This document shows, piece after piece, positions 1 to 8,150 of a DNA stretch of 64,000 bases. Source of the DNA: Enterobacterales bacterium (GTDB lineage: Bacteria > Pseudomonadota > Gammaproteobacteria > Enterobacterales > Enterobacteriaceae); the NCBI GenBank assembly GCA_003864575.1, contig BHES01000004.1, positions 1 through 64,000 on the forward strand, in the 5' to 3' direction. How positions within the stretch are numbered: the first letter of the stretch is position 1; every line of letters starts with the position of its first letter. Made by a program: the position numbers and the translations under genes. The notes beneath the pieces were generated by a model. That model saw only the letters and a program-made list of their open reading frames with translations. It did not search any database and had not been told where the DNA came from.

Positions 1-72
1 GCTATGGCGATGATCCGGGCTTTAAATAAAATGACGCTTGCAGGAATGCCGAAGAGTGTAAGAGTTGCCTGA
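1..72 (+). CDS. 3' end of an unidentified CDS (partial at window edge), C-terminus ...AMIRALNKMTLAGMPKSVRVA
   Basis: Open frame from base 1 to TGA at 70-72, immediately upstream of and co-oriented with the GH130 gene. Confidence 0.5.
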   Translation, partial: AMAMIRALNKMTLAGMPKSVRVA

Positions 73-129
73 GAAAATGAGCAATGAGGAGCACCTTTAT
101 CAAAATCTGATTTATTCAACAAAGCCCCT

Positions 130-1020
130 TTGCTGTTGCCGGTTAACGGCGTTTGGGAGGCTGGTACGCGGCGCTTTTCGCGCGACGACCCCGCTTATGA
201 TTTCAGCGATCCGAGAATGATCACTCTGAAAGCCGACCCTTCGGTGGTGTTTCTGACATCCATGTCGCATCTGCGTCTGGCGCGCAGCCACACTGGGGAG
301 GATTTCACCGTCGATACGTATCCTTTCATCATCGCAGATACCCAGTACGAGCAGTTTGGCTGTGAAGACCCGCGTATTACGTGCATTGATGGCCTGTTTT
401 ACATCAACTACTCGGCCATTTCACCTTACGGAATTTCCACTGCACTGGCGACGACCCGCGACTTTATCTCCGTCACTAAAAAAGGCGTGATTTTTTGCCC
501 GGATAACCGCGACGTCTGCTTCTTCCCGCAGAAAATTAACGGACGCTATCTGGCCCTGACCCGCCCATCGCCTAAGCATTTTGGCAAGCCAGAAATCTGG
601 ATTTGTGAATCACCAGACATGCTGCACTGGGGGAATCACCAGCATCTGCTGGGCAGCCAGTCCAGCGAATGGGACGCACTGAAACTCGGTGGCGGTGCGC
701 CGTTGCTCAAAACCTCCCGTGGATGGTTGCAGATTTATCACGGTGTGGATAAAGACCAGCGTTATTGCCTCGGGGCGCTGTTACTCAACATCAATGATCC
801 GCTGCATATCCTGGCAAAATCCGACACGCCGTTGTTACAACCCGAAGCGCCCTATGAAAGAGAAGGATTCTTCGGCAACGTGGTCTTTACCTGTGGCGCG
901 CTGATCGAGCAGGATGTGCTGAAGATTTATTACGGCGCAGCCGACGAATGTATCGCGCTGGCCAGCCTGCCGCTTGAGGCGCTGTGGGAGCATCTCGGGA
1001 TCGGAAACCAGCATCAATGA
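130..1020 (+). CDS. GH130 family glycoside phosphorylase-like / PH1107-related glycosidase
   Basis: Motifs SDPRMI, SHLRLARS, YEQFGCEDPRIT, KLGGGAPLLK..GWLQIYHGVD and IYYGAADECIALA, typical of the GH130 five-bladed propeller; TTG start at 130 uncertain. Confidence 0.82.
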   Translation: MLLPVNGVWEAGTRRFSRDDPAYDFSDPRMITLKADPSVVFLTSMSHLRLARSHTGEDFTVDTYPFIIADTQYEQFGCEDPRITCIDGLFYINYSAISPYGISTALATTRDFISVTKKGVIFCPDNRDVCFFPQKINGRYLALTRPSPKHFGKPEIWICESPDMLHWGNHQHLLGSQSSEWDALKLGGGAPLLKTSRGWLQIYHGVDKDQRYCLGALLLNINDPLHILAKSDTPLLQPEAPYEREGFFGNVVFTCGALIEQDVLKIYYGAADECIALASLPLEALWEHLGIGNQHQ

Positions 1021-1928
1021 GCACAGTTAAATCGCTGCACCAACAGTTTCGCTCGCAGGCTACCCCGGTCACCGGCCAGGCGAAAATTCATTTTCACGGC
1101 GTTGACGGCGAAGATGTGTATAACCTCACCGCGCCGTTTCGCGCGGGCCGGATATCGGTCATTGCGGCGCGCGTTGAGCCGAGAGACTCCGAGTGTTCAC
1201 GGGTCATGTTTTTTGATTTTGACAGTCATCAGCGCTGCGACCTGTTACCCGATGCGCCCGTTCTGGCATTGCAGGATCCTTTTTTCACCCACATTGGCGA
1301 ACAATTAATTTTCGGCGGCGTCGCTGTCACTCCCGACCCTAAAAATCCTGCGGTGCTTCGCTGGAAGACGGTGCTGTATCGAGGGGCCGATATTCATTCG
1401 CTAAGCCCCTTTTTCACCGGGCCGGAAGGCATGAAAGATATCCGCCTGGTTGAGTTACAGGAAGGTCGCGTACTGGTTTTCACACGGCCTCAGGGCGCGG
1501 TCGGCGGGCGAGGCACCATCGGTTACGTCGTGCTGAACACACTCGACGAGTTGACCTCTGACGCGTTAGAGCAGGCAACGTTGTTGTACGGACAGGTTTC
1601 AGCCGACGAATGGTGTGGCGTGAATGCAGCTTATCGGCTGGATGCCCATGACATCGGGGTTCTGAGCCATATTGCCCGTTTCGACGCGCAGGGTCATCGC
1701 CACTATTACGCCTGCACCTTTGTCTTTAATAGCCAAACGCACCACTGTTCTCCAATGAAAATGATTGCCGAACGCCAGCAGTTCGAACTTGGCCCCGCAA
1801 AACGCGCTGATCTTAATGACGTGATATTTCCTGGCGGACTTACTTTTGTCGATAAATCATCGGCCCGTTTATATTGCGGCACCAGCGATTGTGAAGCGCA
1901 ATGGATTGATATTAATTACCCTTTCTAA
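1017..1928 (+). CDS. DUF1861-like putative glycosidase (beta-propeller)
   Basis: VYNLTAPF motif and overall pattern (GMKDIRLVEL..RVLVFTRPQG, DLNDVIFPGG, LYCGTSDCEAQWIDI) resemble DUF1861; ATGA overlap with the GH130 stop. Confidence 0.7.
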   Translation: MSTVKSLHQQFRSQATPVTGQAKIHFHGVDGEDVYNLTAPFRAGRISVIAARVEPRDSECSRVMFFDFDSHQRCDLLPDAPVLALQDPFFTHIGEQLIFGGVAVTPDPKNPAVLRWKTVLYRGADIHSLSPFFTGPEGMKDIRLVELQEGRVLVFTRPQGAVGGRGTIGYVVLNTLDELTSDALEQATLLYGQVSADEWCGVNAAYRLDAHDIGVLSHIARFDAQGHRHYYACTFVFNSQTHHCSPMKMIAERQQFELGPAKRADLNDVIFPGGLTFVDKSSARLYCGTSDCEAQWIDINYPF

Positions 1929-1945
1929 TAATAGGAAAATTATAA

Positions 1946-3037
1946 ATGAAGATAAATTTTATTTTATCCTGCCTGTGTGTATTAGGCGTAGCCCCTATTG
2001 GTGCGCTGGCAGCTGAATCAGAAAGTGTTAATACCGCGATTTACCCTGGCGATAAAATAAAGATGAAACACCCAAGCGGAAAGGTTGTCGATGCAGTAAT
2101 AAGCGTAGACGATGACAATATCGCTATCATCGAAGTCAATGAAGTCGACACGGGATATAACCTTCATGGTAACTGGTTGACGGAGTATAAAATAGAGCAT
2201 TTCCGTAATGAAGGTTCATCGCATAACTCCCGACCGGTTCATGAATGGGTTATCGGTGATGGTCGGGTGAACCTTGGAGATACCGGATTAAACCTTGGTT
2301 TCCTGCTGAAGAAGGTTTCCTTCAAAAACGAAACGCACGACAGCGCCGATAACCATAATGATTTTCGTATGACCGAAATGGAATTACGCCCGGCCTATTC
2401 GTATGAAACCGGCAAGCACTGGATGATGATTGAAGCCATCTATCTGGGTAAAACCGGCTATGAAAAACCCACGGTAGCTGAGAGCAATGCCTATCTGATT
2501 GGCGGTGACGGCTACGGCTTCCGGCCTTACTACCGCTATCAGGTCAGCGATAAGTTTGCATTCAACACCGATCTTAAGTGGCTGACGGAAGACAAGGGAG
2601 CAAATGGCGCGGACTCCGGTAAGTTCGTATTCTATGAAGCGCTGTTCAACGTCAATTACCGCCTCACCGATGATTTCACTGTGGGCTTGGAATTCTTCCG
2701 CAAAGAGGGAGACGAATATGACAAGAACGGCAACCGCGGGTCTAATGTCGTCGAAAAGGAGATCCGCCCCTGGGCAACCTACCATCTCGACAAACATAAT
2801 TTTTTATTAAAAATGGAGCCTCAACATAAGCGGATTAAAGACCGCCAGGGCACTGAAACCTACAGTTCAAAAGCCTGGAAATATATTCTTAACTACAGTT
2901 ATGCTATTACGCCAAAAATCTATTTTGTCTCAGAGATTTTTTATCGTACTGAAGGAGATAAAGAGATTGACGGCCAAAGCGGTTTTGACGATCAGACCAC
3001 TAATTTTGGTAAGCTGGGTTTTAATTTTATCTTCTGA
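1946..3037 (+). CDS. Outer-membrane porin, OmpG/KdgM-like, with extra N-terminal region
   Basis: Signal peptide (MKINFILSCLCVLGVAPIGALA), amphipathic beta-strand pattern, C-terminal LGFNFIF. Confidence 0.75.
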   Translation: MKINFILSCLCVLGVAPIGALAAESESVNTAIYPGDKIKMKHPSGKVVDAVISVDDDNIAIIEVNEVDTGYNLHGNWLTEYKIEHFRNEGSSHNSRPVHEWVIGDGRVNLGDTGLNLGFLLKKVSFKNETHDSADNHNDFRMTEMELRPAYSYETGKHWMMIEAIYLGKTGYEKPTVAESNAYLIGGDGYGFRPYYRYQVSDKFAFNTDLKWLTEDKGANGADSGKFVFYEALFNVNYRLTDDFTVGLEFFRKEGDEYDKNGNRGSNVVEKEIRPWATYHLDKHNFLLKMEPQHKRIKDRQGTETYSSKAWKYILNYSYAITPKIYFVSEIFYRTEGDKEIDGQSGFDDQTTNFGKLGFNFIF

Positions 3038-3102
3038 GTAAAACTAATAATAACAGATAACAACAACACTTAACTCATATCGATTATTAACAGGACGTTA
3101 AT

Positions 3103-4374
3103 ATGAATATCTTTGCAAAACTAATCTGGGCACTCTGTCTTTTTATACCTTCTATTGTCATTGCTGAACCCGTTAATACGAAACACCTTGATTCCCTTTA
3201 TGAACAAAGAAAAATAAATGATGGGGACGAAATAGGCATCATCCATATTTACAGCGAGTTCCCAAAATATGGCTGGGTCAAAGATCCTATCGAAGGGGTC
3301 AGCGCCATTGATGATATTTCCCGCGCACTGGTGTTTTACAGCGGGCTGTATTCGCATCAGCCAGATCCTAAAGTCATGGATAAAATGATCCATCTGACGC
3401 GCAGCATTCTGCTAATGCAGGCAGAAAATGGTTATTTCTATAATTTTATTTACCCGGATAACAGCATCAATAAAAGCTATAAAACCAGCGTTGCCGAACC
3501 CAACTGGTGGACATGGCGGGCGCTATGGGCACTGGCCACGGCTTATCCTTCCATCAACACGCAAGATACTAAGCTAGCCGCTCAGATGCATAACGTTCTG
3601 TTTACCAGTCTTTCAACCTTGCCGGGCTACGTGAAAGAAACGCAAACGCTGACCACGCTGCACGGTATCACCCTGCCAGCCTGGATGCCCAATGGCGGTG
3701 CCGATCAGGCCGCTATCATGTTACTGGCACAGACCCGGGCTCAGCAAATTTCACCGCAGCCGAATATTGCCAGCATGATGAAAACTCTGGCAAATGGAAT
3801 GATGACGATGCAAATTCGCGACCCGGCATCGCCGATCAATGGTGTGTTCTTGAGTTGGAAAAATACCTGGCACGGTTACGGCAATAATCAGGCTTACGCC
3901 CTGCTCGAGGCTGGAGCATTGCTGGAAGACCGTGACATGATCAAAGCCGCGTTTGTTGAGTTGGACAACTTCCACCCGTATTTGATTGAGCAGGGTTATC
4001 TGACCAGCTTTACCGTCAGTCAGCAGGATCATCGCATCCAGATGAGCGATAAACAGCAGTTTTCACAAATTGCCTATATTTTCCGGCCTATGATTTTTGC
4101 CAATCTGCCGGCTTATGAGATTTCACGGGATACACGCTACATTGATCAGGCCGTCACGCTGGCAATGTGGTTTTATGGTAGCAACGTCGCGAAAGCGCAG
4201 ATGTATTTTCCGCACACCGGACTGGCCTTCGATGGCCTGGACTCAAAAGAGGCGGTGAATCGCAATTCTGGCGCGGAATCTACCGTGGAAGCCTTGCTGG
4301 CGCTCGATGCTATCGAGCGTTCACCACTGGCTAAAAAACGGCTGGAAGAACGGCTGAAACACGTGAAGCCATAA
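3103..4374 (+). CDS. Secreted protein with predicted (alpha/alpha)-barrel glycan-active enzyme fold
   Basis: Signal peptide; helical-repeat pattern with NWWTWRALWALATAYP, GNNQAYALLEAGALL, NSGAESTVEALLAL. Confidence 0.55.
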   Translation: MNIFAKLIWALCLFIPSIVIAEPVNTKHLDSLYEQRKINDGDEIGIIHIYSEFPKYGWVKDPIEGVSAIDDISRALVFYSGLYSHQPDPKVMDKMIHLTRSILLMQAENGYFYNFIYPDNSINKSYKTSVAEPNWWTWRALWALATAYPSINTQDTKLAAQMHNVLFTSLSTLPGYVKETQTLTTLHGITLPAWMPNGGADQAAIMLLAQTRAQQISPQPNIASMMKTLANGMMTMQIRDPASPINGVFLSWKNTWHGYGNNQAYALLEAGALLEDRDMIKAAFVELDNFHPYLIEQGYLTSFTVSQQDHRIQMSDKQQFSQIAYIFRPMIFANLPAYEISRDTRYIDQAVTLAMWFYGSNVAKAQMYFPHTGLAFDGLDSKEAVNRNSGAESTVEALLALDAIERSPLAKKRLEERLKHVKP

Positions 4375-4386
4375 GCGAAGAATACA

Positions 4387-4418
4387 AAAGGGTCTGGTTT
4401 TGAGCCAGACCCTTTTTT
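4387..4418. terminator. Rho-independent (bidirectional) terminator between the glycan operon and rhtC
   Basis: aaagggtctggttttgagccagaccctttttt inverted repeat with A and T tracts. Confidence 0.85.
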
Positions 4419-5110: not shown

Positions 5111-6943
5111 CTACTCGTCGCCGTTATCGATATGGTCTCGGATCATCGCCATAAACGGACGGCCAAATTTTTCGAGTTTACGCTGGCCAACACCGGTGAT
5201 GTCCAGTAAATCACTTGGGCTTATCGGCAGATGTTCGGCCATTTCGAGCAGCGTAGTATCGTTAAAGACCACGTATGGCGGCACGTTGTTGTCATCGGCC
5301 AGGGTTTTACGCAGCTTGCGCAGCTTGGCAAACAACTTACGATCATAGTTGCCACCATAGCTTTTCTGGCTGGCACTGCTTTTAATCTTCAGCGTCTGAA
5401 TTCGCGGCACCGCCAGTTGCAAGGGAATTTCACCCCGCAGCACCGGGCGCGCCGCTTCGGTCAGTTGCAGCGCCGAGTGCATGGCAATATTTTGCATGAC
5501 CATGCCGAGGTGGATCAGCTGGCGTACCACGCTGGTCCAGTGTTCGTTACTCTGATCTTTGCCGATGCCGTAGACCGACAGCTTGTCGTGGCCGTATTCA
5601 CGGATACGCTGGTTATTCGATCCGCGCAGCACTTCCACCACATAACCCAGACCAAATCGCTGGCCTACACGAGCCACGACCGACAGCGCTTTTTGTGCGT
5701 CGAGCAGGCCGTCATAACGTTTTGGCGGATCCAGGCAGACATCGCAGTTACCGCAGGCGTTCTGTTTACCTTCGCCAAAATAGTTGAGCAGCACCAGACG
5801 GCGACAGGTCTGCGCTTCGGCGAAGGCGTTCATCGCATTCAGCTTGTGACGTTCGACATCCTGCTGTGCGCCCGGCGGTTTTTCTTCCAGACAACGGCGT
5901 AGCCAAGCCATGTCGGCGGGATCATAGAGCAATACGGCTTCGGCTGGCAGGCCATCTCGCCCGGCTCGGCCAGTTTCCTGATAGTAGGACTCGATGGTGC
6001 GCGGAATATCAAAGTGCACGACGAAACGCACGTTAGGCTTGTTGATCCCCATACCGAAGGCCACGGTGGCGACGACAATTTGTAAGTCGTCACGCTGGAA
6101 GCCTTCCTGCACGCGGGCACGGGTGTCGTTATCCAGACCGGCGTGATAGGCGCCTACGCTCATTCCACGGCTTTGCAAACGGGCGGCGGTATCTTCGACT
6201 TTGGCGCGGCTGTTACAGTAAATGATGCCGCTTTTTCCGCGCTGGTCCTGCACGAAGCGAATCAACTGGTCGAGGGGTTTAAACTTTTCCACCAGCGTGT
6301 AACGGATGTTCGGGCGGTCAAAGCTGCTGACCTGAATCAGCGGATCATTAAGCTCCAGCAGACGGACAATATCGTTGCGGGTGGCTTCATCGGCGGTGGC
6401 CGTCAGCGCAATGACCGGCAATTGTGGATAGCGCAGTTTTAACTGGCCGAGCGCACGGTATTCCGGACGGAAATCGTGGCCCCATTGGGAGATACAGTGG
6501 GCTTCATCAACGGCCAGCATGGCCGGATTCCACTGTTGCAGTTGTTCGAGGAAGTCGCCCATCATCAGGCGTTCTGGCGCGATATACAGCATTTTGATGC
6601 GGCCCGTGCGGCAACCCGCCATCACGTCCTGCTGCTGTTCGCGGGTTTGCGTCGAATTCAGGCAACCGGCTTCAACGCCCGCCGCCATCAACTGATCAAC
6701 CTGGTCTTTCATCAGGGAGATCAATGGTGAAACGACCAACGTCAGGCCATCCATCACCAGAGCGGGGATTTGATAGCACAGCGATTTACCACCACCGGTC
6801 GGCATCACCACCAGACAATCTCGCCCTGAAATGGCGGTATTGATGATCGTTTGCTGACCCGGTCGGAATTGCTGATAGCCGAAGGTATCGCGTAATACCT
6901 GATGAGCCAGCTCTTCTTTATTTAATACTGCCGCCGTAGACAC
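5111..6943 (-). CDS. recQ: ATP-dependent DNA helicase RecQ
   Basis: [36 protein letters not shown] domain. Confidence 0.97.
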
Positions 6944-7035
6944 TCAATTCCCCAACTGTTCAAACCACCCGGCTAAGCCCTAAAGCCGCCGGGGCTGCCG
7001 GTCATAATATACGAGTTGCGGAGAGCCGGGTATAT

Positions 7036-7928
7036 TTACATCAAGTCGTTGAGCATAACCCCAACACCGATGCGGGTTTGCTTGTGATTGTAGTCAATCA
7101 ATGACTCGCCGTAACCGCTAAAGACCTGCGCGTAAAAGCGGGCATGTTTTGAAATTGGGTAGCTCCAGCCTGTCGTCGCGCCACCGTAACCGGTATTCCA
7201 GTTATAACGGCTTTCCACGCTGAACACGCTGTCACCCCAGGCATAGCCCATTTTCAGACGGTAGTAACCCATGTACTTGGTGATATCCGGGTTATCGTTA
7301 TCTTCGTCATTTTCAGGAAGGCGATACCAGGGCTTGAGATCAACTTGCCAGTTGCCATGTTGAGCCATGAAACGGGCATAAACGCGGTTCCAGCTGCGGG
7401 AGGTCGGGTCCGAACTGCCGTTAGATTGGTGATTCACACCATATTCTGCTTCGCGAAGCGTCCAGCCGAGAAAACTGTAATCGGTGGCCCATGCCAGGAA
7501 CAGTTGCGGTTCATAGTTGGTTTCACGAAATGGTGAAGACTCTGCACGGTTAGATAGCTGCCAGAATGATTTTTGCGTATAGGAAGCACCGAGCACGGAG
7601 TTATCACCGGCAATACCACGCCATATCGGGAACGCCAGGCTGAGTTGAAATTCAACTTCATCGTGCTTGGCATTTTTTGCCCAACTATCAGATTTAATCG
7701 AATTTTTATTAATATTACTGGTGTCGGTATAGAGCAGATAGTTGGATTCGTAAGGATAAAGCGTTAAAGGGTTATCATGTATCTCCAGCATGTTCGCCAC
7801 GATACTACCGCGTACGGATGGCTTATCATGTACTGCGACTATGGTCGCTTCATCCGCGTGCCCCATTAACGGCAGCACCAGCAAGGCGGCGCCAGCAAGG
7901 CGGCGCCAGCAGTCCACTTCTTATCCAT
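7036..7928 (-). pseudogene. pldA: Outer membrane phospholipase A (OMPLA); mature part intact, signal-peptide region frameshifted by a 14-bp tandem duplication
   Basis: Mature sequence VRGSIVANMLEIHDNPLTLYPYESNYLLYT...FRETNYEPQLF...GVGVMLNDLM. ATG at 7928 with AAGGAT RBS reads MDKKWTAGAALLAPPCWCCR*. The called ORF uses an internal GTG at 7917. Confidence 0.8.
7878..7911 (-). repeat. 14-bp direct tandem repeat (about 2.4 copies) in the pldA signal-peptide coding region
   Basis: + strand caaggcggcgccag repeated at 7882-7895 and 7896-7909, with flanking matching bases. Confidence 0.95.
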
Positions 7929-8150
7929 TTTATTTTATCCTTATGAATTAATTTATCTTAAATGAGCCAAACACTCGGCTGAAACACAGAGAAAAGAAAA
8001 AATATTTTACACATAAATACATTTACACATAAGTATCATCGCTGATTATGGTTCATAGATGGAAAAACTTCTGCTTTTGCACCTAGAATCAACATTCCAT
8101 CCACTTTTCGGCAAATACAGTCCGTCATTATTTTCGTCAGGAATTCATTC

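Follow-up and report, generated by a model that had tools for sequence, protein, structure and literature searches.

A probable beta-1,2-mannoside utilisation cassette remnant, broken by IS903-type elements, at the rhtB-rhtC junction of an Enterobacterales bacterium

The left edge of the window (the whole 64,000-nucleotide stretch analysed, positions 1 to 64,000 of contig BHES01000004.1, assembly GCA_003864575.1) probably holds what remains, at the 3' side, of a beta-1,2-mannoside utilisation cassette that was acquired horizontally, entered the junction between rhtB and rhtC and was later interrupted by IS903-type elements; the pathway is very probably no longer functional in this genome. An earlier note, made from the letters alone, had described the same region as a compact five-gene operon. 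When frames, strands and coordinates were re-derived from the sequence all were present as given, but they do not amount to five operon genes: they comprise an insertion sequence (IS) end, one pseudogene and three open genes, followed by a terminator and core genes.

1 to 126, forward strand: right end of an IS903-type IS, with a transposase tail at 1-72 and the inverted repeat at 109-126
127 to 1020, forward strand: 5'-truncated GH130 gene (pseudogene), PF04041, residues 62-353 of the intact homologue
1017 to 1928, forward strand: open frame of a DUF1861 protein, a GT108-like five-bladed propeller (PF08950; Leishmania MTP structures)
1946 to 3037, forward strand: outer-membrane beta-barrel-like (porin-like) protein with signal peptide, terminal Phe and a Rahnella homologue
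3103 to 4374, forward strand: secreted YPO2471-type enzyme, probable (alpha/alpha) barrel, matching PDB 7tem
4380 to 4418, no strand assigned: rhtB/rhtC bidirectional terminator (hairpin), one of two copies flanking the cassette, the 97% copy lying on contig C59
4438 to 5067, reverse strand: rhtC, right flank of the insertion site (NF007591 above cut-off)
5111 to 6943, reverse strand: recQ, core flank (NF008279 above cut-off)
7036 to 7917, reverse strand: pldA, core flank (NF008031 above cut-off)

Bases 1-126 recur at the ends of 15 other contigs of the same genome (98-100% identity) and terminate in GATTTATTCAACAAAGCC, the reverse complement of GGCTTTGTTGAATAAATC, which we take to be the inverted repeat of IS903 (IS5 family). 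This 18-bp terminal repeat is exact at 109-126, its single copy within the window, and at 34 other places, giving 35 exact genome matches against none for the reversed control. Transposase families are matched weakly by the frame that stops at base 72, as one would expect of a tail of 23 to 63 residues; this tail is all of the transposase that was assembled, and no 9-bp target duplication is visible at the contig ends. From the repeated contig ends, the inverted repeat and the transposase matches it follows that the first gene, previously left as unknown, is the transposase tail of an insertion sequence. IS903-type ends were seen at very many contig ends of this draft, which measures 3.6 Mb against 4.7-5.4 Mb in the sampled congeners, which makes the lineage look both reduced and rich in IS elements.

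The GH130 frame lacks a genuine start and opens at the IS border, at what would be residue 62 of the intact protein: from base 127 it reads PLLLPVNGVWEAGTRR... and aligns gap-free (81%) to residues 62-353 of the 355-aa GH130 protein of Rahnella sp. AA. Its family assignment (130-1020) was borne out by PF04041 (182 bits against a gathering score of 26; 1.5e-53). With residues 1-61 absent, the remnant does not form a complete five-bladed propeller carrying the N-terminal Asn of subsite -1, and the motifs of the lost part (R...NP, FNAG and an L.R.AE strand, LLLRxAE) are common to the 11 other aligned sequences. In Teth514_1789 the N-terminal Asn28 helps form subsite -1 (PMC4264767); its equivalent would sit in FNAG of the intact homologues, while the two further residues named in that paper likely have their counterparts in the retained GCEDPR and YYGAADE. 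A stop codon in frame at 85-87 lies inside the IS, ahead of the remnant, and therefore the full GH130 protein cannot be made. The break looks recent, since the remnant carries no frameshift. The ATGA overlap reported between the GH130 and DUF1861 frames was confirmed at 1017-1020.

The other side of the break was found on contig C59, which carries yigL-pldB-rhtB, then a UgpC-type ATPase, then a phosphomannomutase (PMM) gene and then the same IS end; as yigL, pldB and rhtB are all there, the idea that this genome had lost them was dropped. The PMM gene is cut at its 5' side (the profile match begins at model position 11, with the IS end directly alongside). A 5.7-kb DNA query reaching from the SBP gene to GH130 matched only the GH130 remnant in this genome, and an SBP protein query returned only a 23% match elsewhere, so the importer and the GH13 enzyme are missing from the draft. 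As the IS end seen at either border is the right one, these genes were probably lost between two IS copies; with the draft 95.6% complete (215 contigs), their absence is likely rather than proven, and they could be unassembled. It is extremely unlikely that misassembly produced the IS-GH130 join and that the organism has a whole gene: although the window begins exactly at a contig end, where repeats collapse, GH130 sequence sets in right after the final base of the inverted repeat, as at a true IS border, the PMM side shows the same structure, and no other place in the genome was found to carry the N-terminal part of GH130.

The junction itself can be read from the relatives. rhtB and rhtC are adjacent in all five congeners, 67-140 bp apart with nothing between them, and the cassette is therefore an insertion at this junction, much as the earlier note had supposed; neither GH130 nor the barrel gene was found in the five congener genomes. 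The cassette is flanked on each side by a 37-bp terminator core, the two copies being 97% identical (on contig C4 beside rhtC and on C59 beside rhtB), whereas in Rahnella and one congener (G002) just one hairpin of this kind separates rhtB from rhtC. The UgpC frame on C59 (L037, 7629-8909) has lost its usual stop and runs on for about 60 codons through the terminator into rhtB antisense, which, together with the two terminator copies here against one in Rahnella and G002, places the insertion at the terminator. Rahnella carries its related cassette at a distance of a few genes, ahead of yigL, which means that insertion has taken place at two different sites. On the right, the strong terminator proposed after the last cassette gene corresponds to a hairpin at 4386-4416, the longest terminator-like stem of the region, and the minus-strand set rhtC, recQ and pldA was recovered with equivalog-level NCBIfam matches throughout. 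An Rfam search of the region gave no match, and a promoter scan gave a site count not above that in shuffles.

Intact homologous loci support the view that the two propeller enzymes, the porin-like protein and the secreted enzyme belong to a locus for the import and phosphorolysis of a beta-mannoside. In Rahnella sp. AA, UgpC and LacI genes diverge from an SBP-permease-permease-GH13-GH130-DUF1861-porin-barrel series, followed by yigL, pldB, rhtB, rhtC and recQ. A genome of the same family (G702) holds the complete UgpC-PMM-LacI / SBP-permease-permease-GH13-GH130-DUF1861-porin-barrel arrangement, and two genomes from another family of the order (G226 and G246) add manA and an APH-type kinase gene to the cassette. 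Elsewhere parts are missing: Rahnella rivi has the PMM gene beside LacI and a cassette without porin and barrel, G419 has no porin (an adjoining gene reads like a TonB receptor), and a Sphingomonas plasmid cassette has neither GH13 nor porin, with an annotated TonB receptor nearby. Within a 392-genome sample of the family the barrel gene was found only in this genome and in G702, and the cassette is a sporadic accessory trait. The APH-type kinase gene stands directly after manA at the cassette end (L039, 11854-12837; L038, 6667-7650), and its product might phosphorylate free mannose left by phosphorolysis.

Compared with Rahnella sp. AA, dN/dS was lowest for the porin-like protein (0.04), stood at 0.10 for both the GH130 remnant and the secreted barrel, and reached 0.15 for DUF1861 (core genes, 0.02-0.08), at dS values of 1.4-2.3 for the cassette genes, near saturation; these ratios indicate that selection constrained the cassette proteins before the cassette was broken. 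The view that the operon works in this strain, its transporter and regulator being encoded elsewhere, could appeal to the open DUF1861, porin-like and barrel genes and to their past purifying selection. We nevertheless regard it as very unlikely, for GH130 lacks its N-terminus, PMM is 5'-cut by the same IS, the importer genes were not found and the dN/dS values mostly reflect the time before the break; the earlier picture of a functioning operon thus gives way to that of a truncated one, its GH13 gene likewise not found in the draft.

PF08950 matched the DUF1861 frame (1017-1928) with 355 bits against a cut-off of 28 (3.9e-106), and a profile search aligned the Leishmania MTP structures 6q50 (2.2e-69), 6q4w and 6q4x with the protein over nearly its full length, which confirms the proposed family and marks the DUF1861 protein as GT108-like. 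Its Asp87, in LQDPF, falls opposite the Asp in the LEDPF motif of MTP-2; with a 20-residue tag taken into account, we count the latter residue as D94, the one mutated in structure 6q4z. The Leishmania enzymes are GT108 members active on beta-1,2-mannan (PMC8950772). The intact Rahnella genes for GH130 and DUF1861 lie at 6937-8001 and 8001-8912 of L016. Of all solved structures, Lin0857 (PDB 5b0p; 1.7e-103), listed as a beta-1,2-mannobiose phosphorylase (PMC8950772), comes nearest to the intact Rahnella GH130. A point against this assignment is that even the intact Rahnella protein scores below the equivalog cut-offs of the NCBIfam mannobiose phosphorylase models. Because GH130 is closest to Lin0857 and DUF1861 to the Leishmania MTPs, the predicted linkage is most likely beta-1,2, a refinement of the beta-mannoside substrate suggested before. 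Two further observations back this reading, namely a Bacilli MAG contig on which DUF1861 and GH130 are fused as one 674-aa protein (L019, 4993-7014), and the presence of PMM and manA in the cassette. DUF1861 genes were also seen on Woesearchaeota and candidate-phyla contigs with no GH130 neighbour detected (L020, L021, L023, L024, L026, L027 and L028), and L023 and L022 carry two DUF1861 copies each.

In Leishmania the MTPs act on a mannan reserve as both transferases and phosphorylases (PMC8950772), and the DUF1861/GH130 pair might be thought to make or turn over an internal beta-1,2-mannan reserve in the same way. This is very unlikely, for the SBP, the permeases, the outer-membrane-type protein and the LacI-type regulator of the intact cassette all point to uptake. 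A somewhat better case, though still an unlikely one, can be made for an intact cassette that serves another beta-mannoside, for instance an alpha-glucosylated or a beta-1,4-linked one, with GH130 and DUF1861 as variants of new specificity: most cassettes include a GH13 enzyme of alpha-glucosidase type, and the secreted barrel enzyme has no assigned function. The GH13 gene suggests alpha-glucose in the natural substrate, so that plain beta-1,2-mannan may be wrong; against another beta-mannoside stand the closest characterised relatives of both propellers, which act on beta-1,2-mannosides, and the GCED motif, whose Glu-Asp pair is the one that PMC4264767 reports for GH130_NC enzymes.

The porin-like protein (1946-3037) matches its Rahnella sp. 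AA homologue at 86%, has a signal peptide and a terminal Phe, and is conserved in G226, G246 and G702. Its labelling as OmpG/KdgM-like could not be sustained, neither family being among the Pfam and NCBIfam matches; PF13557 reached 22.4 bits against a cut-off of 22 and the other Pfam matches were weaker, and the family profile found nothing meaningful in the PDB. Weak matches to SopD were set aside as chance (a short stretch, with E between 0.03 and 0.4). Structure predictions from two-sequence alignments were of low confidence, with a mean pLDDT of 31 for this protein and of 40 for the secreted barrel.

The secreted barrel protein matches YPO2471 of Yersinia pestis (PDB 7tem) at 1.3e-149 over the mature protein, and 7tem was the sole PDB match of the family profile. 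No published function for YPO2471 was found in the literature; two papers that mention nearby Yersinia locus tags give expression values only. No Pfam cut-off was reached on the domain; matches to GH127 and C5-epimerase families were weak, and GH127 membership was rejected (PF07944, 22.4 bits against a gathering score of 24.9, over a short stretch). Acidic residues are invariant across seven relatives (E52, E64, D70, D71, D119, D201, E286, D288, D377, E392 and E396 in the numbering of the window protein). Part of the domain also occurs in distantly related proteins of about 630-880 aa, in those scanned behind a GT4 glycosyltransferase, and the barrel half of these fused proteins (L069-L078) is covered by no Pfam family. 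In ten neighbourhoods of GT4-fused forms (the same loci, picked by hand among the matches) GH130 was present every time, in some together with mannose-1-phosphate guanylyltransferase or PMM-type genes; GH130 was close by in every context of the domain that was examined, secreted as well as GT4-fused. This proximity is a testable lead, being context evidence rather than proof. We tentatively propose that YPO2471-type barrels form a carbohydrate-active family not described before, with beta-1,2-mannosyl (or mannosyl-glucosyl) glycans as substrates; the barrel is secreted and unfused in catabolic cassettes and GT4-fused next to GH130 in other proteobacteria, and it could complete a bacterial GT108/GH130 pathway for beta-1,2-mannoside scavenging.

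Gene families, conserved gene order, insertion site, IS truncation and the failure to find the middle genes in the draft are direct observations; the substrate, the sequence of the steps and what the barrel enzyme does are inferred from the relatives. When intact, the outer-membrane barrel would admit the mannoside, the secreted YPO2471-type enzyme may process it outside the cytoplasm, and the ABC importer would take up the oligosaccharide. The GH13 enzyme would probably remove alpha-glucosyl groups (the least certain step), GH130 and the GT108-type DUF1861 protein would phosphorolyse beta-1,2-mannosyl bonds to mannose 1-phosphate, and PMM and ManA would feed the latter into glycolysis.

The locus offers a concrete, testable function for a structure family that is solved but unexplained (7tem), and a conserved operon and a gene fusion link bacterial DUF1861 proteins to the beta-1,2-mannan enzymes of Leishmania. 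It is also an example of how IS elements disrupt a cassette of this kind, in a genome whose size is clearly below that of the sampled congeners.

Set against known systems, the cassette is a variant of GH130 phosphorolysis, and its barrel family is the question worth testing. With Lin0857 of Listeria innocua (PDB 5b0p) the intact Rahnella GH130 shares full-length similarity, and the remnant keeps GCEDPR and YYGAADE; the window copy differs in lacking the N-terminal 61 residues, and the activity of the intact homologues is a predicted one. The DUF1861 protein resembles the Leishmania MTPs (GT108; 6q50, 6q4w, 6q4x) over nearly its full length, with the Asp at the catalytic position kept, but it is bacterial, paired or fused with GH130 and set in an import operon, whereas the MTPs belong to a reserve-polysaccharide system. 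YPO2471, a putative exported protein, is likewise secreted. The Thermoanaerobacter Teth514_1788/1789 cluster also combines beta-1,2-mannoside phosphorylases with an ABC transporter and mannose metabolism genes (PMC4264767); it has two GH130 enzymes where the present cassette pairs GH130 with GT108, it has no outer-membrane or secreted barrel part, and the role proposed for it is GDP-mannose salvage.
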